From: Desulfospira joergensenii DSM 10085
GTDB lineage: Bacteria > Desulfobacterota > Desulfobacteria > Desulfobacterales > Desulfobacteraceae
Length of the DNA stretch: 64,000 nt
Reading direction: 5' to 3'
Assembly: GCF_000420085.1 (NCBI RefSeq)
Contig: NZ_ATUG01000001.1
Coordinates: 248,001 to 312,000 of the forward strand
The notes beneath the pieces were generated by a model. That model did no database searches. It was not told the origin of the DNA and saw only the letters and a program-made list of their open reading frames with translations. Position numbers and translations under genes: made by a program. Position 1 is the first letter of the stretch; each line of letters starts with the position of its first letter. Shown here one piece after another: positions 9,011-40,279 of this stretch.

Positions 9011-9583
9011 ATGAAAGATACGTTAACCGTATTCACCGCAAGCAAGTATTGTAATGTCTCGTCTAAAACCATCATCAACTGGGTGGAGGCCGGCCACATC
9101 AAGGCCTACAAGACTGTGGGCGGCCACCGCAGGATTAAAAAATCCGATCTTGAGGCCTTTATGCTGGATCAGGGCATCCCCATTCCCGACCAGGAAAGCC
9201 AGGGAACCCATAAAAAGATCCTGGTGGTAGACGACGACATGATCATCGTGGAATCCATTGTCCAGGCCCTGGAAGAGGACGAATTTGACTACGAGGTCCT
9301 TTCCGCATCGGACGGTTTTGAAGCCGGCCTCCAGGTCAACCATTTCCTTCCGGATCTTTTGATCCTTGATATCATGATGCCGGATATCAAAGGGTATGAT
9401 GTCTGCAAAAAAATCAAGGAAAACCCCAAGACCAACCACATTAAAATAGTGGTGTTATCCGCCTACCTGGATGATGACAAATTTGCCCGGATGAAAGAGT
9501 ATGGCGCAGATCTCTGTCTGTCAAAACCCTTGCCCCTGACGCAGCTAAAGGATCAAGTGGCCGAACTGCTGGAACTTAAATAA
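9011..9583 (+). CDS. HTH (excisionase/BldC-type) plus receiver-domain regulator
   Basis: A 190-residue two-part protein. Residues 1-52 form a MerR/excisionase-like helix-turn-helix (ASKYCNVSSKTIINWVEAGH, then KTVGGHRRIKKSDLEAF), which binds DNA. Residues about 68-188 are a CheY-like receiver with acidic DDD at 74-76, phospho-acceptor Asp120 (LLILDIMMPD) and conserved Lys in LSKPLP. A DNA-binding domain placed before the receiver is the reverse of the usual response-regulator order. It is the first gene of the cluster, 15 bp upstream of the MetF-like gene, so it probably controls these genes or simply shares their transcript. No partner kinase is adjacent. RBS AAGGAGGAGTC. Confidence 0.85.
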   Translation: MKDTLTVFTASKYCNVSSKTIINWVEAGHIKAYKTVGGHRRIKKSDLEAFMLDQGIPIPDQESQGTHKKILVVDDDMIIVESIVQALEEDEFDYEVLSASDGFEAGLQVNHFLPDLLILDIMMPDIKGYDVCKKIKENPKTNHIKIVVLSAYLDDDKFARMKEYGADLCLSKPLPLTQLKDQVAELLELK

Positions 9584-9598
9584 AAAAGGAGGCAGATC

Positions 9599-10477
9599 AT
9601 GAATTTAAAAGAATCCCTCGAGAAGAAAAGATTTGTTGTCACCTCGGAAATCCAGGTTCCCATGGGCGATGAAGAGCCCGAGCACCTGGTTGAGAGCCTG
9701 GGCCGCGTCAAGGGCCGGGTGGACGGGGTGTCCATCCAGGAAATGGAACTGGAAGGGGTGGTTTCAGATACCATTAAGTCCTGTTCCCTTCTGAAGGCAA
9801 ACAATTTCAACGCCATTTACCAGACCACCACCCGGGATAAAAACCGGTACCAGCTCCAGAAGGACCTGACCCAGGCCCATGAAACCGGTGTGGACAACCT
9901 GCTGGTATTTACCGAAGACTACAGGATCACCGGAGATTCCCTCCAGGAGACCATGTTCTTCCACGTGGACTCGGGAAAACTGGGCTCTGTCCTGGACCAC
10001 CTGAAAAAAGGGATGACCATTGAAGGCAAGGAGCTGGAAGCCAGGGCTGAGTTCCTCCTGGGCTCGGGCGTGGAAACGCCCTGGGGGAAAAACATGCCCA
10101 AAAAAGGCATGGAGGAGATGGAGGACATGATCAACGTGGGAACCGGTTATTTTTTAACCACACCCATCTTTGACGTTGAGCAGTTTGCCAAATTCATGAA
10201 ACAGGTGGACCCATTCAAGGTCCCGGTGATTGCAGAGGTCATGATCCTGAGAACCGCCGGCATGGGAAAATTCCTGAACCGCCACTTCAAATCAGGACTG
10301 GTGCCGGAATGGGTCATCCAGAAACTTGCCCAGGCCCCGGACAAGAAAAAGGCCAGCATGGATCTGTTTGCCGATACCATCAAAAACCTCAGGGATGTCT
10401 GCCAGGGAGTTCATATCATCACCATGGGCAGTGCCGACCATCTGGTGGATTACCTGAACGCCGCAAAGTTACGATAA
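9599..10477 (+). CDS. MetF-like methylenetetrahydrofolate reductase family protein
   Basis: A 292-residue TIM-barrel protein resembling MetF: the N-terminal strand reads FVVTSEIQVPMGDEEPEHLVE, where the catalytic Glu of MetF is expected (SEI), followed by DGVSIQEMELEGVVSD and a C-terminal segment with KVPVIAEVMILRTAGMGKF. It is clearly different from the second MetF of this cluster (17642-18577). The FAD- and folate-binding residues are less canonical here, so it may be a paralogue that binds another C1 carrier or acts as a structural subunit. It starts 15 bp after the regulator, with AAAGGAGGCAGATC before the ATG, and ends 10 bp before the Hdr gene, so it is in the same operon. Confidence 0.75.
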   Translation: MNLKESLEKKRFVVTSEIQVPMGDEEPEHLVESLGRVKGRVDGVSIQEMELEGVVSDTIKSCSLLKANNFNAIYQTTTRDKNRYQLQKDLTQAHETGVDNLLVFTEDYRITGDSLQETMFFHVDSGKLGSVLDHLKKGMTIEGKELEARAEFLLGSGVETPWGKNMPKKGMEEMEDMINVGTGYFLTTPIFDVEQFAKFMKQVDPFKVPVIAEVMILRTAGMGKFLNRHFKSGLVPEWVIQKLAQAPDKKKASMDLFADTIKNLRDVCQGVHIITMGSADHLVDYLNAAKLR

Positions 10478-10487
10478 GGGGGAAGTT

Positions 10488-11774
10488 ATGGCAGAGGCGA
10501 TTAAAATCGACGAACTCGACATTGAGTTCAAGGAAGAGGTCCTGGACAAGGTGCCGGACGGGAACTTTGATCTGTGCCTGACCTGCGGGACATGCACGGG
10601 CGGATGCCCGGCTTCGGAGCAGTTTGACATGGATCCCAGAAAACTGATCCGGATGCTCAACCTGGGGATGGATGAACAGGTGAAAAAATCCCACTGGATC
10701 TGGGTCTGCTCCATGTGCGCCCGGTGCCTGTTTGCCTGCCCCATGAACGTGAATATCCCCAAACTGATCTATAATATCCGCCGGGCCGTGCCCCGGGAAA
10801 AGCGTCCCCGGGGAATCCTGGGCTCCTGTGACCAGCACATCCGGACCGGAAGCGCCATGGGAGCGGCCAAGGAGGACTTTGAATTCACCGTACTCGACGT
10901 GGCCGAAGAGATCCGGGAAGAACAGGAGGGGTTTGAAGACCTTGAGGTCACTGTGGACCGGGTGGGTGCGAACATGGTGCTCAACCAGAACTCCCGGGAA
11001 CCCGTGACCGAGCCCGAGGAGATGGGCCCTCTATGGAAGATCCTTCACAAGGTGGGGGCCGACTGGACCTACCCTTCGGTCATGTGGGCCGGTGAAAACT
11101 ACTGCATGTTCCTGGCCGACGACGAGGGGTGGAAGTATATCATCGAGGAGTTTGCCCTCCATGTGGACAATAATTTAAAAAGTCCCCTGGTGGTCAATAC
11201 CGAATGAGGCCACTCCTATTTTGCGATCCAGGAAGGATTGCGCAAGTATAAGATTCCCCATAAATTTCAGCTCATCACCATTATTGAGCTCTATGCCCAG
11301 TGGATCCGGGAGGGAAAGCTAGAAGTCAACTCCGACTGGAATAAGGACCTGGGTGTTAAATTCACGGTACAGGATCCCTGCAATATCGGCCGGAAAAGCG
11401 GATCCAATAAGATCGTGGATGATCTGCGCTTTGTGATCAAGACCGTGGTGGGGGAAGAAAACTTCATCGACACGGTTCCCAACCGGGACAACAACTTCTG
11501 CTGCGGCGGAGGCGGCGGGGCCCTCCAGGCCGGATTCCCGGACCAGAGAAAGGCCTTCGGCAGGACAAAGTACAATCAGATCATGGCCACCAAGGCATCT
11601 TATGTGATCGCGCCCTGCCACAATTGCCACGGCCAGATCGAAGATATCGGACATCATTACGGGGCCGAATACCACGTGGTCCATCTGTGGACCATCATTG
11701 CCCTGGCCATGGGCATGCTGGCTGAAACCGAACGAACCTATCTTGGGCCGGACCTGGCCGAAGTGGGACTATAA
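10488..11774 (+). CDS. HdrC/HdrB-type (HdrD-like) iron-sulfur selenoprotein
   Basis: A fused heterodisulfide-reductase-like subunit that would carry electrons between HdrA and its partners. Two 4Fe-4S motifs lie at Cys30/33/36/40 and Cys74/77/80/84 (HdrC part). The rest is a CCG (HdrB-like) region with DPCN, NNFCCGGGGGAL and APCHNCHGQ. Codon 240 is TGA (11205-11207), within NTE-stop-GHSYFA, in frame with the following 188 codons. The family normally has Cys here, so UGA is read as selenocysteine. A hairpin 14-38 nt downstream fits a bacterial SECIS. Reading it as one gene gives 428 residues. A naive annotation would split it into two genes at 11207. The gap to hdrA is 16 bp. Confidence 0.85.
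11221..11245 (+). promoter_or_regulatory. Putative bacterial SECIS hairpin for Sec240
   Basis: The stem TTGCGATCC (11221-11229) pairs with GGAT plus CGCAA (11235-11245) with a two-base TG bulge. The apical loop AGGAA begins 23 nt after the TGA at 11205-11207. Bacterial SECIS elements lie inside the coding region just downstream of UGA, with an apical loop roughly 16-37 nt away and a G among the first loop bases; all three hold here. Confidence 0.65.
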
Positions 11775-11790: not shown

Positions 11791-14700
11791 ATGACGAACA
11801 AACAAAACGGATCCGTCATGGTTGTCGGCGCCGGTATTGCAGGCATTCAGGCCTCCCTTGATCTGGCAGACTCAGGATTCCTGGTATACCTGGTGGACAA
11901 AGATACGGCCATCGGAGGAACCATGGCCCAACTGGACAAGACTTTCCCGACAAATGACTGCTCCATGTGCATTATCTCCCCCAAACTGGTGGAGGCGGGG
12001 CGTCATCTCAATATCGAACTTTTGACCATGACCGAGGTAGAGGATGTCTCCGGCGAGGAGGGAAATTTTACCGTCACCCTGAAACAGGCGCCCCGGTTCA
12101 TCGATCTTGAAAAATGCACGGCCTGCGGGGAGTGCACCAAGATCTGCCCGGTGGAGCTTCCCAGCGAGTTTGACGAAAACCTGCAGAACCGTAAAGCCGC
12201 ATTCAAGCTCTACCCCCAGGCCATGCCCAGCGCCTTTGCCATTGAAAAAAAGGACCGGGCCCCCTGCCGCCTGACCTGCCCGGCCGGGCTGAACGTCCAG
12301 GGCTATGTCCAGATGGTCAAAGAGGGGAAATTCAAGGAATCCCTGGAAATCATCATGGAGCAGCTGCCCCTCCCGGGCGTCCTGGGCCGGATCTGCCCCC
12401 ATGAGTGCGAGGATGCCTGCCGCAGGTGCCAGGTTGACGAACCCGTGGCCATCCGGGACCTGAAACGGCTGGCAGCGGACAGCTTTGATCCCCGGGAGAT
12501 TGAAATCCCATGCGCCCCCAAGATCAATAAAAAGGTGGCCATCATCGGCTCAGGCCCTGCCGGGCTGTCTGCCGGATACCATCTGGCCAGAAAAGGGGTG
12601 GACGCCACCATCTTCGAGGCCCTTCCCCGGGCCGGGGGGATGCTGAGGGTGGGCATTCCCGATCACCGGCTGCCCAGGGACGTTCTGGACAAAGACATTG
12701 ATGTGGTCACCAACCTGGGCGTGGAGATAAAGCTGAACACGAGCCTGGGAAAGGACATCACCGTGGACGGACTCCTGGCTAACGGCTATGATTCCGTGTT
12801 CCTGGCCCTTGGCGCCCACAAGGGAATTGAGCTCGGCATCCCCGGAGAAGAGCTTGAAGGCGTCCGCCAGGGTGTGGATTTCCTAAGGGAACTCAATCTT
12901 ACCGGCACCACAAAGACGGGTAAAAAAGTCGGCATCATCGGCGGGGGTAACGTGGCCATTGACGTGGCCCGTTCCGCAATCCGCCTGGGAGCCGGCGAGG
13001 TGACCATTCTCTACCGCAGAACCCGGAAGGAGATGCCGGCCTGGGAAGAGGAGATCCGGGCAGCCGAAGATGAAGGCGTGAAGATCACCTATCTTGCCGC
13101 CCCCCAGGAGATCCTTGGTGAGGACGGCAGGGTCAGGGCAGTCCGGGTGATCAAAATGGAGCTGGGAGAACCCGATACATCCGGAAGAAGGCGGCCCGTG
13201 CCCGTTCCGGGAAGCGAATACGAAATCGAAACCGACCAGATCATCCCGGCCATCGGCCAGCGGCCCGACGTTTCAGCCCTGGAAAAACTGGCCGGTGTGA
13301 ACATCAGCAAATGGGACACCACCGAGGTCAACCCCCTGACCCTGGCAACGGACAGGGAAGGCGTCTTTGCCGGAGGAGATGTCCAGACCGGTCCCGGCGT
13401 GGCCATAGCCGCCATTGCCGCAGGCATGGAGGCGGCCGAGTCCATGTTCCGGTATCTCACCGGGGCTGACATGGAAAAAGGCCGGCAAAGGGCCGTGGAG
13501 GAGAATCCCGAGTACATCCCTGTCCACGAAGACATGGCTGTTGAACACCGCCGCAGGATGCCCGAACTGGCCGTGGTTGAACGGGAGGGCAACTTCCAGG
13601 AGGTGGAACTGGGTTACGCCCGGGAAGACGGGCAAAAGGAGGCGGCCCGGTGCCTCAACTGCGGGTACTGCTCCGAGTGCCTCCAATGTGTGGATGCCTG
13701 CCTGGCCCATGCCGTGGATCATTCCATGACCGGAAAAACCCATACCCTTACGGTGGGGGCCGTGATCCTGTCGCCTGGATTCACCCCCTTCGAGCCCACC
13801 CAGATGACCACTTACTGCTACGGCCACAGCCCCAATGTGGTGACCAGCGTGGAATTTGAACGGATCCTCTCCGCTTCCGGTCCCTATGCCGGCCACCTGG
13901 TCAGGCCCTCGGACAATACCCCGCCCTCAAAGATTGCCTGGATCCAGTGCGTGGGATCCAGGGACATGAACCAGGGGGATAACTCCTACTGCTCCGGGGT
14001 CTGCTGCATGTACGCCAACAAGCAGGCGGTCATTGCCAAGGAGCATGCCGGGAGCAGCCTGGATACGGCCATTTTCTTCATGGACATGAGAACCCATGGC
14101 AAGGAGTTTGACAAGTACAATATACGGGCCCAGGACAACTCCGGGGTGAGGTTTATCCGGTCCAGGATCCATTCCGTATTTCCCGAGCCCGGAGACAAAT
14201 ACCGGATCGTCTATGCCAGCGAGGCGGGCAACACCATGGAGGAGATCTTCGACATGGTGGTCCTGTCCGTGGGACTGGCCCCCAATAAAGATGCCATTGG
14301 ACTTGCCAAACGGATCGGGGTTGAGATCAACGAACACGGATTTGCCGAAACCCGCAACCTGCTGCCGGTCCACACCTCCAGGCAGGGGATCTATGTCTGC
14401 GGGGCCTTCCAGGAGCCCAAGGACATCCCCTCATCGGTCATGGAAGCCTCTGCTGCGGCAGCCACAGCCACCATGGCCATGCCGGGGGAGAGGTGGAGCC
14501 TGACCCGGACCCGGGAACTGCCCCCTGAAAACGATTTTTCAGGACAGGCCCCCAGGATCGGGGTCTGGGTCTGCAACTGCGGCATCAACATCGGCGGTGT
14601 GGCCGATGTTCCTGCGGTGAGGGATTATGCCGCCACCCTGCCCTACGTGGTCCATGTGGAGGACAAACTCTTTACCTGTTCCCAGGATTCCCAGGATCAC

Positions 14701-16245
14701 ATGAAGGAGGTGATTGCCGAACACGGCCTCAATAGGGTGGTTGTGGCGGCCTGCTCCCCCAGAACCCACGAACCCCTGTTCCAGGAGACCATCCGGGATG
14801 CAGGCCTGAACAAGTATCTTTTTGAAATGGCCAATATCCGGGACCAGAACACCTGGGTCCATATGAACCACCCGGAAAAGGCCACCCAAAAGGCCAAGGA
14901 CCTGGTCCGCATGGCCGTGGCCAAGGCCGCGTTCATCGAGCCCCTGCACCAGGTCAGCCTGCCCATTAAAAAGGCTGTTCTGATCATCGGCGGGGGGGTC
15001 TCGGGCATGGAGGCGGCTATTTCTGCAGCCTCCCAGGGGATAGAAGTCCACCTGGTGGAAAAAACCGGGACCCTGGGGGGGATTGCAAAACAGCTCAATG
15101 CCACCTGGCAGGGAGAGCCCATCCAGGAGTACGTAAACTCCCTGGAGGAGCTGGTCCGGGCCAACAACTCCATCTCCCTTTACCTGGATTCCCAGGTCAC
15201 CTCGACCACCGGGTCCATGGGAAATTTCGTCACCTGCATATCCGTAAACGGGGGGGACCGGGAGTCGACAGTGGAACACGGCGCCGCCATCCTGGCAACG
15301 GGGGGACTGGAGTTCAAGCCCGATGAGTATCTCTACGGGCAGGAGCCCAACGTCCTGACCCATCTGGATATGGATGCGGCCCTGAGGGAGGAGGACCCGC
15401 GCATTAAAACCGCTAAAAAGATCATCTTCATCCAATGCGTGGGATCCCGGAACGAGGAAAATCCCTATTGTTCCAAGATCTGCTGCACCCACAGCCTGAA
15501 AAGCGCCCTGGCCCTGAAAAAAATGGATCCCCGCAAACGGGTCTATATCGTCTACCGGGATATCCGTTCCTACGGGTTCAGGGAGGACCTGTACAAGGAG
15601 GCAAGGGAAGCCGGGATCCTCTTTATCCGCTACGATCTGGAAAAGATGCCTGAGCTGAAAAAAAACGCCAACCAGGAACTGGAGTTCACGGTTCTGGACC
15701 ATGTGCTCCAGGTACCGGTGATCATCAATCCGGACCTGGTGGTCCTGGCCTCGGGCATATCCCCCGGCGACAACCACAGCCTGTTTGAGAAGTTCAAGGT
15801 CCCGGTGAACGCCGAAGGCTTCCTGGTGGAGGCCCATGCCAAGCTGAGACCCGTGGATTTTGCCTCTGACGGCCTGTTCGTGGCCGGACTTGCCCACTAT
15901 CCCAAACCCCTGGAGGAAAGCATTGCCCAGGCCCGGGCCGCCGTGGCCAGAGCCATGACCATCCTGTCCCGGGATTCCCTTATGGTGGGCGGGGTGGTGG
16001 CCGAGGTCACCCCGGAAAAATGTGCGGTCTGCCTGACCTGCGTGAGGACCTGCCCCTATGACATCCCCTATATCCACGAGGACGGATACGCCAAGATCGA
16101 TCCCTCGGAATGCCACGGCTGCGGGGCCTGTGTAGGCGAGTGCCCGGGCAAGGCCATTCGGCTGAACCACTTCACGGACGAGCAGATCATCGCAAAAACC
16201 GATGCCCTGTTTCATGATGAAGAATTGATAATGGAGAACGGATAA
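11791..16245 (+). CDS. hdrA: HdrA-type flavoprotein with inserted GltD-like module and second HdrA half
   Basis: A 1484-residue flavin and iron-sulfur protein, the expected electron-bifurcating core of the cluster. The start is ATG 11791 after AAAAAAGGAGGGTGCCAA. Order: HdrA N-terminus with FAD motif VVGAGIAGIQA and FPTNDCSMC (53-60); ferredoxin motif Cys109/112/115/119; then an inserted GltD/dihydropyrimidine-dehydrogenase-like module (about 155-610) with PCRLTCPAG, Cys-rich CPHECEDACRRC, FAD motif VAIIGSGPAG (249-258) and NAD(P)H motif VGIIGGGNVA; a further Cys cluster at 621-637; the rest of HdrA; a second HdrA half from about Cys928 (VCNCGINIGG) with another FAD motif (VLIIGGGVSGMEA); and two final 4Fe-4S motifs (Cys1411/1414/1417/1421 and 1441/1444/1447/1451). 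It probably oxidises NAD(P)H and splits electrons between ferredoxin or another acceptor and the MetF side; this is inference. Confidence 0.88.
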   Translation: MTNKQNGSVMVVGAGIAGIQASLDLADSGFLVYLVDKDTAIGGTMAQLDKTFPTNDCSMCIISPKLVEAGRHLNIELLTMTEVEDVSGEEGNFTVTLKQAPRFIDLEKCTACGECTKICPVELPSEFDENLQNRKAAFKLYPQAMPSAFAIEKKDRAPCRLTCPAGLNVQGYVQMVKEGKFKESLEIIMEQLPLPGVLGRICPHECEDACRRCQVDEPVAIRDLKRLAADSFDPREIEIPCAPKINKKVAIIGSGPAGLSAGYHLARKGVDATIFEALPRAGGMLRVGIPDHRLPRDVLDKDIDVVTNLGVEIKLNTSLGKDITVDGLLANGYDSVFLALGAHKGIELGIPGEELEGVRQGVDFLRELNLTGTTKTGKKVGIIGGGNVAIDVARSAIRLGAGEVTILYRRTRKEMPAWEEEIRAAEDEGVKITYLAAPQEILGEDGRVRAVRVIKMELGEPDTSGRRRPVPVPGSEYEIETDQIIPAIGQRPDVSALEKLAGVNISKWDTTEVNPLTLATDREGVFAGGDVQTGPGVAIAAIAAGMEAAESMFRYLTGADMEKGRQRAVEENPEYIPVHEDMAVEHRRRMPELAVVEREGNFQEVELGYAREDGQKEAARCLNCGYCSECLQCVDACLAHAVDHSMTGKTHTLTVGAVILSPGFTPFEPTQMTTYCYGHSPNVVTSVEFERILSASGPYAGHLVRPSDNTPPSKIAWIQCVGSRDMNQGDNSYCSGVCCMYANKQAVIAKEHAGSSLDTAIFFMDMRTHGKEFDKYNIRAQDNSGVRFIRSRIHSVFPEPGDKYRIVYASEAGNTMEEIFDMVVLSVGLAPNKDAIGLAKRIGVEINEHGFAETRNLLPVHTSRQGIYVCGAFQEPKDIPSSVMEASAAAATATMAMPGERWSLTRTRELPPENDFSGQAPRIGVWVCNCGINIGGVADVPAVRDYAATLPYVVHVEDKLFTCSQDSQDHMKEVIAEHGLNRVVVAACSPRTHEPLFQETIRDAGLNKYLFEMANIRDQNTWVHMNHPEKATQKAKDLVRMAVAKAAFIEPLHQVSLPIKKAVLIIGGGVSGMEAAISAASQGIEVHLVEKTGTLGGIAKQLNATWQGEPIQEYVNSLEELVRANNSISLYLDSQVTSTTGSMGNFVTCISVNGGDRESTVEHGAAILATGGLEFKPDEYLYGQEPNVLTHLDMDAALREEDPRIKTAKKIIFIQCVGSRNEENPYCSKICCTHSLKSALALKKMDPRKRVYIVYRDIRSYGFREDLYKEAREAGILFIRYDLEKMPELKKNANQELEFTVLDHVLQVPVIINPDLVVLASGISPGDNHSLFEKFKVPVNAEGFLVEAHAKLRPVDFASDGLFVAGLAHYPKPLEESIAQARAAVARAMTILSRDSLMVGGVVAEVTPEKCAVCLTCVRTCPYDIPYIHEDGYAKIDPSECHGCGACVGECPGKAIRLNHFTDEQIIAKTDALFHDEELIMENG

Positions 16246-16259
16246 TTAAGGAGAGAGCC

Positions 16260-16685
16260 ATGAGTAAAGACTTCGAACCCAGGATCATCGCGTTCTGCTG
16301 CCAGTATTGAGCCTATGCAGCAGGGGACCTGGCAGGTTCCATGAGATTGTCCTATCCTTCCGAGATAAAGATCATTCAACTGCCCTGCACGGGACGTGTG
16401 GACATCATCCACCTGATGAACGCCTTTGAGGACGGGGCAGACGGTGTATACGTGGCCGGCTGCCTGGAAGGAGAATGCCACTATATATCCGGAAACCTCA
16501 AGGCCAGAAGAAAGGTGAATTACGTGAGACGTATTCTGGACGAAATCGGTGTGGAACCGGAGCGGATCCAGATGTACAACCTCTCATCGGCCCAGGGCGC
16601 CCGGTTTGCGGAAATCGCCACTGAAATGGTGGAAAAGATCAGGGAACTGGGCCCGACACCCGTCACCGGCAGCCATGCGGCATGA
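16260..16685 (+). CDS. mvhD: MvhD-type hydrogenase delta subunit, selenoprotein
   Basis: The start is ATG 16260 after AAGGAGAGAGCC. Codon 17 is TGA (16308-16310) inside AFCCQY-stop-AYAAGDLAG. MvhD proteins have CNWC(S/A)YAxADLAG there, so UGA replaces a [2Fe-2S] ligand Cys and is read as selenocysteine, giving 141 residues. Other cluster ligands are Cys13/14 and the C-terminal GCLEGECHY motif. MvhD passes electrons from an oxidoreductase to HdrA in flavin-based bifurcation. The longest open frame without readthrough begins at 16341 and lacks the N-terminal ligands, so a naive call would be truncated. It sits 14 bp after hdrA. No hydrogenase large or small subunit is in the window, so the electron source here is more likely the MetFV or NAD(P)H side. 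Confidence 0.88.
16325..16340 (+). promoter_or_regulatory. Putative bacterial SECIS hairpin for Sec17 of MvhD
   Basis: GGACCT (16325-16330) pairs with AGGTTCC (16334-16340) with one bulged T; the loop is GGC. The loop begins 21 nt after the UGA at 16308-16310, and G is in its first two positions, as SelB-binding hairpins require. Confidence 0.6.
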
Positions 16686-16908: not shown

Positions 16909-17586
16909 ATGATAGTTGCAGATCGTAAGTCTCTTGATGAGATACTGGCGATGGTGGAAGAGAACCATAAAATCCTCATTACCGGATGCAAGGGGTGTGT
17001 AACCGTCTGTAATGTCGGGGGACTCAAAGAGGTGGAAATCCTGGCCTCATCCATGAAAATCGCCCGGAAAAAGGCCGGCAGAAAAATCGACATTGACACC
17101 CTCGTGCTGGAGCGGCAATGCGACAATGAATATGTCTCCCAGATCAGTGAGACGGTCGGGGACTACGAGGCTGTCCTTTCCATGGCCTGCGGCGTGGGAC
17201 CCCAATTTCTTTCGGAAATGTATCCGGACCAGGTGTTTTATCCGGCCGTGAACACCACCTTTTTCGGGGGAGCCGTGGAACACGGGATCTGGGAGGAGCG
17301 CTGTGCCGGCTGCGGCACCTGCGCCATCCATCTTTTCGGCGGACTCTGCCCCGTGGCCCGATGCGCCAAGAGCCTGCTTCACGGGCCCTGCGGAGGATCC
17401 TCCAAGGGAGTCTGCGAGATCAACAAGGACACGGAATGCATCTGGGACGCCATTGTGAGAAAGAAAATGGAACTGGGAAAGCTGGAAGATCTTAGCCGGA
17501 TCAAACCGCCCAAAAACTGGAAAACCGCCCGGGACGGAGGTCCCAGAAGAAGCATAAGAGAGGAGCTTGTGGAAGGGAATATCTAG
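16909..17586 (+). CDS. metV: MetV: zinc/iron-sulfur partner of methylenetetrahydrofolate reductase
   Basis: A 225-residue cysteine-rich protein of the methylenetetrahydrofolate-reductase C-terminal (MetV) family. The N-terminal part carries GCKGCVTVCNVGG and a Rossmann-like region with ERQCDNEYV and MACGVGPQFL. The C-terminal part has the dense set CAGCGTCAIHLFGGLCPVAR, then GPCGGSSKGVCEI, which holds iron-sulfur clusters and Zn in the family. MetV binds MetF and links it to an external electron donor in acetogens and related anaerobes. It starts after GAGGTGACC, 223 bp past mvhD, and is followed by metF after 55 bp. The stop is TAG. Confidence 0.88.
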   Translation: MIVADRKSLDEILAMVEENHKILITGCKGCVTVCNVGGLKEVEILASSMKIARKKAGRKIDIDTLVLERQCDNEYVSQISETVGDYEAVLSMACGVGPQFLSEMYPDQVFYPAVNTTFFGGAVEHGIWEERCAGCGTCAIHLFGGLCPVARCAKSLLHGPCGGSSKGVCEINKDTECIWDAIVRKKMELGKLEDLSRIKPPKNWKTARDGGPRRSIREELVEGNI

Positions 17587-17641: not shown

Positions 17642-18577
17642 ATGAGTGAGCTCAAATCAGGCAGCAACCTTGAAAAGGTTCTCAAGGCCGGACATTTCGC
17701 ATTCACAGGGGAATGCGGCCCTCCCAAGGGGGCCAACGTGGCCCATCTCAAAGAGAAGCTGGCCCACCTCAAAGGGAATGTGGATGCGGTCAATATGACG
17801 GACAACCAGACCGCCGTGGTCAGGATGTCCTCCCTGGTGGGATCTGCCCTCATGATCGAAGAGGGGCTGGAGCCCAATTTCCAGATGGTCTGCCGGGACC
17901 GGAACCGCCTGGCCATGACCAGCGATATCCTGGGCGCCTGGGCTCTCGGGATCCGGAACATGCTCTGCCTTTCCGGGGACCACCAGAGCTTCGGCAACTT
18001 TCCCGAGGCCAAAAACGTCCATGATCTGGATTCCATGCAGCTCATCGCCATGGTCAAAAAGATGCGGGACGAGGAAAAATTCCTCAATGACGAAGAGATC
18101 GATGTGGCCCCGAAGATGTTCATCGGAGCGGCCTGCAACCCCTTTGCCGATCCCTATGAGTATAGAGTCTTTCGCTTGGCTACAAAAATTGAAGCCGGGG
18201 CCGACTTTATCCAGACCCAGTGCATATTCAACATGGAAAAATTCCGGGATTTCATGAAAAAAGCCGTGGACATGGGACTCCATGAGAAATGCTATATCCT
18301 GGCCGGGGTTACCCCCATGAAGAACGCCGGCATGGCCAATTTCATGTCCAAGTTCGTACCGGGCATGGACATCCCCCAGGACCTGATCAAACGCCTCAAG
18401 GGCGTGGAAAAGAAAGACCAGGCCGAAGAGGGGATCAAATTTGCCCTGGAGCAGGTGGAGGAGTTCAGGGAAATGGAAGGGGTGGCCGGGGTTCACATGA
18501 TGGCCATTGAATGGGAGCATATGGTCCCGGAAATTGCCGAGAGGGCCGGGGTCCTGCCCCGGCCGAAGATGGATTAA
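17642..18577 (+). CDS. metF: 5,10-Methylenetetrahydrofolate reductase
   Basis: A 311-residue TIM-barrel flavoprotein that interconverts methylene-H4folate and methyl-H4folate in the methyl branch of the Wood-Ljungdahl pathway. The catalytic Glu lies in FAFTGECGPPKGANV near the N-terminus. NMTDNQTAVVRMSS, CRDRNRLAMTSDILGAWALG, and FIQTQCIFNMEKF are typical MetF segments. ATG 17642 follows an AAAAAGGGGG site; the frame could start at 17567 but that leader has no family support. It is last in the cluster and is followed by a perfect terminator. Together with MetV, HdrA, the HdrC/B-like protein and MvhD it forms the kind of complex known from Moorella-type acetogens. Confidence 0.93.
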   Translation: MSELKSGSNLEKVLKAGHFAFTGECGPPKGANVAHLKEKLAHLKGNVDAVNMTDNQTAVVRMSSLVGSALMIEEGLEPNFQMVCRDRNRLAMTSDILGAWALGIRNMLCLSGDHQSFGNFPEAKNVHDLDSMQLIAMVKKMRDEEKFLNDEEIDVAPKMFIGAACNPFADPYEYRVFRLATKIEAGADFIQTQCIFNMEKFRDFMKKAVDMGLHEKCYILAGVTPMKNAGMANFMSKFVPGMDIPQDLIKRLKGVEKKDQAEEGIKFALEQVEEFREMEGVAGVHMMAIEWEHMVPEIAERAGVLPRPKMD

Positions 18578-35819: not shown

Positions 35820-36311
35820 TTGCAGCGTCTGTTCGATATTCTGGACCGGATGGAAAAATTCACCCTGGTCTGGACCATTCTGGGGCTTGCCTTTATCGGA
35901 TTTATTCAGGTCATCACCCGGTACATATTCAACTACTCTTTTACCTGGTTTGAAGAGCTGGGCCGATACCTGGGGGTTTTTATCGCCTTTGCCGGGGCCG
36001 CGACCGGGGTAAAAACCGGAAGCCATTTCACCATGGACCTGATGGTATCCAACCTGAGCCAGCCCTGGCAGAAGATCATCAAGGTCTTTACCGCCTGTCT
36101 GTCCGCCGTCTTTTTCCTGGTGGTGGCCTGGGTTTCATGGAAAATCGTTTTGCGCATGTACGGATTTGAAACCACCTCCCCGACCATGCAGATTCCCATG
36201 TATATCGCATATCTGCCCATCCCGGCCTTTTCCACCCTCATGGGGGCAAGATTTCTCAATCTGGGGCTTACACATCTAAGAACTAAGAGTCCCGGGGAGG
36301 CCGCCCCATGA
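35820..36311 (+). CDS. dctQ: TRAP transporter small permease (DctQ)
   Basis: A 163-residue inner-membrane subunit with four helices, including WTILGLAFIGFIQVITRYIF and VFTACLSAVFFLVVAWVSW. The start is TTG 35820 after TAGGAG. RYIFNYSFTWFEELGRYLGV is the characteristic DctQ motif. It overlaps dctM by 4 bp. Confidence 0.92.
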   Translation: MQRLFDILDRMEKFTLVWTILGLAFIGFIQVITRYIFNYSFTWFEELGRYLGVFIAFAGAATGVKTGSHFTMDLMVSNLSQPWQKIIKVFTACLSAVFFLVVAWVSWKIVLRMYGFETTSPTMQIPMYIAYLPIPAFSTLMGARFLNLGLTHLRTKSPGEAAP

Positions 36312-37582
36312 TCCTGACCATCTGTATTAGTTTCGCAGTCCTTCTGTTCCTGGGGGTGCCCATTGCCGTGATCCTGGGGGTTTCCACCCTGATCTCCCTC
36401 ATGTTCTTCTCATCCACTCCCCTGCACATCATCACCCAGCAGCTCTTCAATGCCCTGGACAAATTTGTTTTACTGGCCATTCCCTTTTTTATCCTGGCCG
36501 GGGCCATCATGACCCGGGGCGGCATTGCCAGAAGACTCATTGCCTTTGTCAACGGACTGGTGGGCTGGTTCCCGGGGGGCCTTGCCATGGCCGGGATACT
36601 GGCCTGTATCTTCTTTGCCGCCATTTCCGGCTCCTCTCCGGCCACGGTGGTGGCCATCGGATCCATCATGATCCCGGCCCTGGTGGATGCGGGGTACGGG
36701 AACCGGTTTTCCCTTGGACTGATAACGGTTTCCGGCTCCCTGGGTATCGTGATCCCCCCCTCCATCCCCATGATCCTCTACTGCATGGTCATGAACGTGT
36801 CCGTGGCAAAGATCTTCATGGCGGGGGTCCTGCCCGGACTTCTCATCGGGTTCAGCCTCATGGTCTATACCTTTTTCATTGCCAGAAAAAACAATTGGCG
36901 CATCGAATCCAGGCCATCCCTGGCAAGGATTGCCCGGACCGCAAGAGAAGGAATCTGGGCCCTGGCCCTGCCCTTTATCGTCCTGGGCGGGATATACTCG
37001 GGGATCTTCACCCCCACGGAGGCGGCCGCCGTATCCGTGGTCTATGCCCTGTTTGTGGAAATGTTCATCTACAAAGAATTCAAGTTCAGGGATATTACAG
37101 GGATCTGCCAGGACGCCGCAATCCTGTCCGCCTGCCTGCTCTTCATCCTCTCATGCGCCATGACCTTTATCTGGCTGCTCACTGCCGAACAGATCCCCCT
37201 TCAGCTGGCCGATATGATCATGGAGCATATCCACAGCCCCTGGGTTTTTCTCCTGGCCGTGAACCTCCTCTTTCTCATCCTGGGCTGCTTCATGGACGAT
37301 GTCTCTGCCATGCTCATCCTGGCCCCCATCTTCCTGGAAACCCTGAACCGGTACCAGATCGACCTGGTCCATTTCGGGGTGGTCATGGTGCTCAACATCC
37401 AGATGGGAATGCTGACCCCGCCCTTTGGGCTCAACCTTTTTGTGGCTTCCGGCATCACAGGCGAGCCCCTGGTCAAAATCGCCCGGGGGGTTCTGCCCTT
37501 CCTGGGCATCATGCTGATCTGCCTGATGCTGGTCACCTATATCCCCTGGATTTCCCTGGCCCTGCCGGAATGGATCCTTTAA
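36308..37582 (+). CDS. dctM: TRAP transporter large permease (DctM)
   Basis: The 424-residue translocation channel with about 12 helices. Typical motifs include LDKFVLLAIPFFILAGAIM, FFAAISGSSPATVVAIGSIM, and GLITVSGSLGIVIPPSIP. It completes the importer with dctP and dctQ and is followed 12 bp later by the glcD-type gene, so uptake and oxidation are co-expressed. Confidence 0.94.
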   Translation: MILTICISFAVLLFLGVPIAVILGVSTLISLMFFSSTPLHIITQQLFNALDKFVLLAIPFFILAGAIMTRGGIARRLIAFVNGLVGWFPGGLAMAGILACIFFAAISGSSPATVVAIGSIMIPALVDAGYGNRFSLGLITVSGSLGIVIPPSIPMILYCMVMNVSVAKIFMAGVLPGLLIGFSLMVYTFFIARKNNWRIESRPSLARIARTAREGIWALALPFIVLGGIYSGIFTPTEAAAVSVVYALFVEMFIYKEFKFRDITGICQDAAILSACLLFILSCAMTFIWLLTAEQIPLQLADMIMEHIHSPWVFLLAVNLLFLILGCFMDDVSAMLILAPIFLETLNRYQIDLVHFGVVMVLNIQMGMLTPPFGLNLFVASGITGEPLVKIARGVLPFLGIMLICLMLVTYIPWISLALPEWIL

Positions 37583-38977: not shown

Positions 38978-40279
38978 ATGAGTGATAAAAATCAGATCCA
39001 AAACTGCGGCAAATGCGGCCTCTGTCTGAGCGCCTGCCCGGTTTACAAGACCCTGAAGGAAGAACATCTCTCCCCCAGGGCCAAGCTCCAGCTCATTAAA
39101 AAATTTGAGGGAAGGGATATCCATGTTTCTCCCCTGCTCAAGGAGTTGGTCTCAAAATGCCTCATGTGCGGATCATGCACGGCCGCCTGCCCCTCGGGTG
39201 TGGATCACTATGGACAGTTCATGGAGATGCGCAGAAAGATGATGGATGAAGTCGGGGAAATTCCAGCCATCAGGAGCATGATCTTCATGCTGGCCAGGGA
39301 ATACCGGATTCAACTGGGTGCAAAAATGGCCCGGATCGGCCGGAAAATCACCCCGGACCAGATCGCCCGGTCCCTGAAACTGGGCTCCATCCCGGTCCAT
39401 TCTTTTCCCGGACTCAACCCGGTTCCTTTCAGAAAAGGACTCCCGGAGAAGATTGAACCCAGGGGAAAGGTAAGGGAAAGCCTGATCTATTTTACCGGAT
39501 GCGCCACCAACTACCTCTTTGAGGACACGGGCCGGGCCGTCATCGGAATCCTCACCCACCTGGGGTACAGGGTCATCATCCCCAAGACCCAGACCTGCTG
39601 CGGCATTCCCCTTATGTTCCATGGGGCGCCGGAAGAGGCTGCCGCCAACATGGCCGCCAATATAAAGGCCATCCAGGGGGCCATGGATATCCACAACTGC
39701 ACCGGGGTGATTGTGGACTGCACCACCTGCGGGACAGCCCTCAGGGATGAGTATCTGGGTCTGGCCCGGAAAATCGATTCAGGAGAAATCCCCGCACCCA
39801 AAGCGTGGAAGGGCTTTGATCCTCAAACCCTGGGCCGGAGCCTGAATAATATAGCCTCAAAAACCCGGGACATCCTCTCTTTTGTCCATGAGCACCGGGT
39901 GGAATGTTCCTTTGACCCCGGGTTTTCCCCTGTCAGGGCGACATACCACGCCCCCTGCCACTCCAGGAACAGTTTTAAAACCGGCAGCATCACGGACCGC
40001 CTGTTCCGGGAGTTTCCCTGCTTTGACTTTGTTCCCGCCCCGGACCAGGACGAATGCTGCGGCGGAGGAGGGACTTTTTTCTATGAATTCCCGGACATTT
40101 CAAGACAGATGGCAGAGAAAAAAATCAATACCGTAAAATCCCTGGAAGTGCCGTACTGGCTTACGGACTGCCCGGTGTGCCGGATCAATCTGGCCGGCAG
40201 CCTGGGGGAAAATAGGGATGGGCCAAAAGTGATCCACCCGGTTGTCCCCATTTATGATCAATTGATCATTGAAGAATAG
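38978..40279 (+). CDS. glcF: Iron-sulfur partner of the hydroxyacid oxidase (GlcF type)
   Basis: A 433-residue electron-transfer subunit. Two 4Fe-4S motifs lie at the N-terminus (CGKCGLCLSACPVY; CLMCGSCTAACPSG), and two CCG motifs follow (TCCGIPLMFHG; DECCGGGGTFFYE). It passes electrons from GlcD to the quinone pool or another acceptor. The stop is TAG. It is translationally close to the flanking genes. Confidence 0.92.
   Translation: MSDKNQIQNCGKCGLCLSACPVYKTLKEEHLSPRAKLQLIKKFEGRDIHVSPLLKELVSKCLMCGSCTAACPSGVDHYGQFMEMRRKMMDEVGEIPAIRSMIFMLAREYRIQLGAKMARIGRKITPDQIARSLKLGSIPVHSFPGLNPVPFRKGLPEKIEPRGKVRESLIYFTGCATNYLFEDTGRAVIGILTHLGYRVIIPKTQTCCGIPLMFHGAPEEAAANMAANIKAIQGAMDIHNCTGVIVDCTTCGTALRDEYLGLARKIDSGEIPAPKAWKGFDPQTLGRSLNNIASKTRDILSFVHEHRVECSFDPGFSPVRATYHAPCHSRNSFKTGSITDRLFREFPCFDFVPAPDQDECCGGGGTFFYEFPDISRQMAEKKINTVKSLEVPYWLTDCPVCRINLAGSLGENRDGPKVIHPVVPIYDQLIIEE

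Follow-up and report, generated by a model that had tools for sequence, protein, structure and literature searches.

The 64,000-nucleotide stretch of Desulfospira joergensenii DSM 10085 analysed here (the window) appears to encode a true selenoprotein of the UGH family, in which a SECIS-directed selenocysteine, Sec240, would lie beside a His-capped noncubane cluster in the HdrBC arm of a predicted complex. We put the probability of this reading at about 75%. The gene and its recoding elements are:

10488..11774, plus strand: HdrC-HdrB fusion (HdrD/EtfD-like) selenoprotein, 428 aa (Pfam Fer4_17/Fer4_8 and CCG; fold match to EtfD and HdrB)
11205..11207, plus strand: UGA encoding Sec240, motif NTE-U-GH (homologue codon comparison)
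11217..11248, plus strand: stem of the bacterial SECIS hairpin, with a conserved core at 11222-11242 and the apical loop AGGAA at 11230-11234 (folding, homologue pairing and bSECIS criteria)

The TGA at codon 240 is the sole internal stop of the frame, which yields 428 residues when it is read as Sec; the codons on either side thus form one continuous Hdr-type protein, as the preliminary description had proposed. Two [4Fe-4S] motifs (C30/33/36/40 and C74/77/80/84) precede a C-terminal CCG region. The same description placed the UGA at a Cys position of the CCG region that holds the active cluster, and this needs correction. The complete CCG motif (C298, C338/C339, C377 and C380), in which all positions are Cys and none is Sec, belongs to the second domain, and Sec240 lies in the first, a degenerate domain that has lost its other cluster ligands and keeps nothing of its motif except the Sec/Cys240 position. 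The protein therefore differs from a catalytic heterodisulfide reductase of the HdrB/HdrD type, defined by two complete C-CC-CxxC motifs, each with a noncubane cluster. Nor does it correspond to GlpC of glycerol-3-phosphate dehydrogenase (TIGR03379, 35.7 bits against a curated cut-off of 279.9). The nearest NCBIfam models are TmcB (168.2 bits), HmcF (157) and DsrK (113.5), with curated cut-offs of 735, 750 and 400, respectively. As these scores are far below the cut-offs, the three names do not apply, and kinship is by motif only.

Comparison across homologues shows, at the level of sequence, that the UGA at codon 240 encodes selenocysteine. Of the 291 genomes of the order that were searched, 243 contain this gene or a relative, many of them with several copies; carriers of the gene include Desulfamplus magnetovallimortis, Desulfocicer vacuolatum and Desulfatitalea alkaliphila, and most of the best-scoring matches contain exactly one TGA. 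Among 93 same-order homologues, the codon-240 column holds 63 TGA, 25 TGC and 5 TGT and no other codon, and each of the 63 Sec genes has one in-frame TGA and no more. The Cys-type position claimed in the preliminary description is thereby borne out, and the variable, non-Cys column that it had named as evidence to the contrary was not found. In a second set of 87 loci this column is U in 72 and C in 15, with one further locus unplaced; some of these loci come from genomes already represented in the 93, so that the counts are not fully independent. In 20 distant relatives (37-57% identity) the column holds 17 U and 3 C, always within U/C-G-H. The relatives examined beyond the 93 number 107, reach down to 37% identity and all carry U or Cys. 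The U/C-G-H motif is invariant across 54 aligned sequences, and TmcB/DsrK-type paralogues encoded in this genome likewise have C-G-H. Reassignment of UGA in the genetic code is ruled out, because TGA ends 14 of the 37 long ORFs of the window as an ordinary stop. The UGA might instead be a real stop, with HdrC-like and HdrB-like products made separately, or it might reflect a pseudogene or an error in sequencing. Nothing but the codon itself speaks for this, whereas dozens of genomes have this codon, in every case at the Cys column and with a SECIS, and the frame downstream of it remains open and conserved; we consider this explanation practically negligible.

The second line of evidence is the hairpin that follows the UGA. 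According to the bSECIS model (PMC13188914), the loop has 3-9 nt with a G in its first two positions, the stem has 4-16 bp, the distance from the UGA is 16-37 nt and the MFE is at or below -7.5. The hairpin found here has the 5-nt loop AGGAA with G at position 2, an upper stem of 8 bp, a loop located 22 nt past the UGA and an energy of -14.3 kcal/mol, all within these ranges. The preliminary description had correctly reported a SECIS-like hairpin with loop AGGAA, but its statement that the hairpin begins 23 nt after the UGA holds for the apical loop, as the stem starts about 9 nt past the codon. Taken by itself, the window sequence gives a modest signal (p 0.06; z of -1.9 against dinucleotide shuffles and -1.7 against synonymous-codon shuffles), and the case thus rests on comparative evidence, which across homologues goes far beyond chance. 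With protein-keeping shuffles, the mean z is -2.0 over the 63 Sec genes versus -0.2 over the 30 Cys genes. Counting from the U, nt 20-26 pair with nt 30-36, and these seven core pairs form in 61-63 of the 63 Sec genes, two of the pairs having changed on both sides: pair 22/34 is A-U in 30 genes and G-C in 31, and pair 26/30 is U-A in 32 and G-C in 27. All 63 Sec genes keep the loop G at position 27, while in the 30 Cys genes most core pairs are often broken and the consensus fold is empty. A search of the whole window with Rfam at gathering thresholds returned no matches, which indicates that Rfam does not contain this SECIS.

The genome also has the machinery that such recoding calls for, another point on which the preliminary description had suggested its proposal could fail: selA (602 bits), selB (340), selC (76) and two selD genes are present, all above the curated cut-offs. 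ARAGORN detected no tRNA in the window, selC being located elsewhere in the genome. The two selD genes (L010, C2:1827537, and L011, C2:846647) each contain one in-frame TGA, and both products are probably Sec-containing selenophosphate synthetases. On the comparative evidence, SelB would recognise the hairpin just past the UGA and insert Sec at codon 240.

The protein belongs to a known family. It carries Sec in the UGH of a Fer4+CCG protein (NTEUGH, residues 237-242), and its Cys homologues, 30 of the 93 against 63 with TGA, have Cys in the Sec column. By 2006 the family was already on record under the name GlpC, with operons of the type glpC-hdrA-frhD-frhG-frhA (PMC1794560), and a 2026 review describes it as the Fe-S oxidoreductase-like (GlpC) selenoprotein family, PTHR43551, with the motif UGH, and calls its interactions and its part in the Hdr operon unclear (PMC13188914). 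Since it is already in published lists, we regard the present protein as a further representative of a known selenoprotein family and not as a new kind of system. Like the published members, it has this motif, comes from a host of the former Deltaproteobacteria and is encoded in one operon with HdrA and a selenoprotein of the FrhD/MvhD type. Two UGA-containing paralogues in the same genome (L017, C1:486875, and L018, C2:1834969; 57% identity) lie outside any HdrA operon, and the UGH family is thus not tied to the HdrA complex. The window also contains a further Fer4+CCG protein (38978-40279) with two CCG matches, near a TRAP transporter gene (DctM, 36308-37582).

What the selenocysteine might do can be approached through structure. 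The AlphaFold2 model (pLDDT 87.5) has its best fold match in EtfD, with a Z of 25.3 over 368 residues, and residues 161-427 match HdrB with a Z of about 21. EtfD of Mycobacterium smegmatis (PDB 9OJN, PMC13083937) has the same domain order, two [4Fe-4S] followed by two CCG domains; the protein described here differs from it in having no membrane/haem part, in the loss of three of the four D1 ligands and in the replacement of Cys581 by Sec. EtfD binds its linear [3Fe-4S] cluster, D1, through Cys503, Cys538, Cys581 and Cys584, and His583 is the residue that completes its noncubane cluster, D2 (PMC13083937). A weak sequence alignment (E 6e-4), for which the EtfD residue numbers were counted back from the printed alignment coordinates, pairs U240 with Cys581, His242 with His583 and residue 243 with Cys584. 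By this alignment Cys503 falls on a non-Cys residue, Cys538 on Trp193 and Cys584 on Ser/Glu/Val243; as these three lack a Cys counterpart, the first CCG domain has probably lost its cluster. The five D2 cysteines are present (C298, C338, C339, C377 and C380), and His242 is invariant.

From this weak alignment and the fold similarity, we infer the cluster content, the ligation by His242 and the role of Sec240. The protein would carry a pair of cubane [4Fe-4S] clusters and, in the second CCG domain, a single noncubane cluster, probably capped by His242, two residues past Sec, as by His583 in EtfD. The first CCG domain would have lost its cluster, leaving Sec240 as what is probably the single surviving D1 ligand position, a short way along the chain from a residue in contact with the remaining cluster. 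As Sec240 falls on a D1 Cys and His242 on the D2-ligating His, Sec is probably a reactive residue beside the cluster rather than a proven ligand. Next to the noncubane cluster it may exist as a readily oxidised selenolate of low pKa, able to react with a partner (of the thiol/disulfide type, or a protein) or to hand electrons on to it. Among open-licence papers, we found neither a prior description of this EtfD-based reading of the Sec position nor a paper on a DsrMKJOP structure with its cluster ligands.

Alternatively, as the preliminary description had proposed, Sec240 might be a direct selenolate ligand, bound either to what remains of a cluster in the first CCG domain or, as an additional ligand, to the noncubane cluster. 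Its EtfD counterpart Cys581 ligates D1, noncubane clusters occupy both CCG motifs in HdrB (PMC13083937) and selenolate ligation is chemically allowed. However, the other D1 ligands are non-Cys here by alignment, and the second CCG domain already offers five Cys and probably His242, so that we view direct ligation as unlikely. It is also conceivable that Sec240 forms a redox-active selenenylsulfide pair with Cys206, which lies in the same domain 34 residues ahead of Sec and is invariant in the 54 aligned close homologues. Yet 12 of 17 distant Sec sequences have Ala or Gly at this position while keeping UGH, which disfavours the pair as the basic unit, and Cys206 is missing in the TmcB/DsrK-type relatives as well; this third possibility appears quite improbable.

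The surroundings of 10488-11774 comprise the following genes:

9011..9583, plus strand: DNA-binding (HTH_17/MerR-like) response regulator, first gene of the cluster (Pfam HTH_17 and Response_reg; same place in 10/10 ortholog operons)
9599..10477, plus strand: MTHFR-like protein, 292 aa, directly 5' of the Sec gene (Pfam MTHFR, 67 bits; 10/10 ortholog operons)
11791..16245, plus strand: HdrL-like HdrA that contains a GltD/NAD(P)H-dependent insert and lacks in-frame UGA codons (domain and NCBIfam profiles)
16260..16685, plus strand: MvhD/FlpD-like subunit and second selenoprotein of the operon, with its UGA at 16308-16310 (CCQYU) (Sec conserved among the 7 fetched orthologues)
16909..17586, plus strand: MetV-like protein (DUF5981, MTHFR C-terminal) (domain match; synteny)
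17642..18577, plus strand: MetF-like methylenetetrahydrofolate reductase (domain match; synteny)

The order regulator, MTHFR-like protein, HdrBC and HdrA-GltD is kept in all ten operons fetched, and MvhD(Sec), MetV and MetF come next in seven of them. L140 reaches the end of its contig; in L138 and L141 no MvhD match was found past HdrA-GltD within the stretch, and L141 has MetV-MetF upstream. For mvhD, a local SECIS-like hairpin, GGGGACC-UGGCA-GGUUCC with loop UGGCA, is present at 16323-16340; the MFE of the 51 nt past the UGA is no better than that of shuffles, and only the local hairpin is SECIS-like.

The window thus holds, in one cluster, a gene set of the MetFV-HdrABC-MvhD type (metF, metV, hdrA, hdrBC and mvhD). 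From gene order we infer that the subunits form one complex, as well as its reaction and direction: the protein may be the HdrBC arm of a predicted MetF-MetV-HdrA(GltD)-MvhD methylenetetrahydrofolate oxidoreductase, which would probably serve a branch of the Wood-Ljungdahl pathway. A related hdrABC-mvhD-metVF cluster, with HdrBC, HdrA, MvhD, MetV and MetF, is found in Moorella (acetogens) and deep-sea Chloroflexi, where HdrBC is fused (PMC5736913); unlike that cluster, the present one has Sec in HdrBC as well as in MvhD, and its HdrA includes an NAD(P)H module of the GltD type. Published UGH-family operons contain hydrogenase subunits (frhG and frhA), in contrast with the MetF, MetV, second MTHFR-like protein and HdrA-GltD fusion found here. 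Desulfobacterium autotrophicum HRM2 (PMC2702500) has a Sec-containing HdrD4, an HdrD-type subunit, and HdrA/glutamate synthase fusions (HdrL) adjoining a Sec-containing MvhD, a likeness by description. We found no prior description of the full operon among open-licence papers.

The exchange between Sec and Cys appears to involve a second residue. Residue 248 (window 11229-11231) is Leu, Arg or Gln (CTG, CGG or CAG) in all 63 Sec genes and Trp or Tyr in all 30 Cys genes, and the same split holds for 89 NTE-U/C-GH motifs at other loci (74 Leu/Arg with U, 15 aromatic with C). The Sec-gene codons share C in first and G in third place, which correspond to nt 25, paired with G31, and to the loop G27. 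Because Leu and Arg have little in common, an RNA-level cause fits the swap better than one at the level of the protein. Cys genes of the near subfamily have Trp, Tyr or Phe at residue 248, the swap being apparently forced by the SECIS stem. In the tree of the 93 sequences there are at least five Sec/Cys changes, three of them forced by strong branches; the Sec/Cys state and residue 248 change five times, together. A tree test of the association had only three well-supported independent pairs, too few for significance. The swap does not hold as a general rule: the near subfamily follows it without exception, but distant Cys members have Arg, Met or Leu. With three well-supported contrasts and these deviations, we treat it as a lead only. 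No prior description of it was found in open-licence papers. In L139 (genome G027), the operon copy of HdrBC has Cys at 240 and MvhD keeps Sec, a pattern which suggests that conversion from Sec to Cys proceeds gene by gene, without a need to lose the Sec machinery.

It is tempting to combine these observations into a more detailed proposal, which we offer tentatively and would not yet favour as a whole. The complex would be an NAD(P)H-linked bifurcating methylenetetrahydrofolate oxidoreductase in which HdrBC and MvhD both contain Sec; Sec240 would be a free catalytic selenolate at the His-capped noncubane cluster, and the SECIS would force residue 248 to change from aromatic to Leu/Arg/Gln, a change undone upon reversion from Sec to Cys.

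For about two decades the UGH family has appeared in lists of selenoproteins without a role for its Sec. The 2026 EtfD structure allows a concrete reading, with Sec two residues from a cluster-capping His, in a domain that would have no cluster of its own. As the family is common (243/291 genomes) and switches between Sec and Cys, it should offer a good natural test of the benefit of Sec to an electron-transfer protein and of the cost of a SECIS within the gene.
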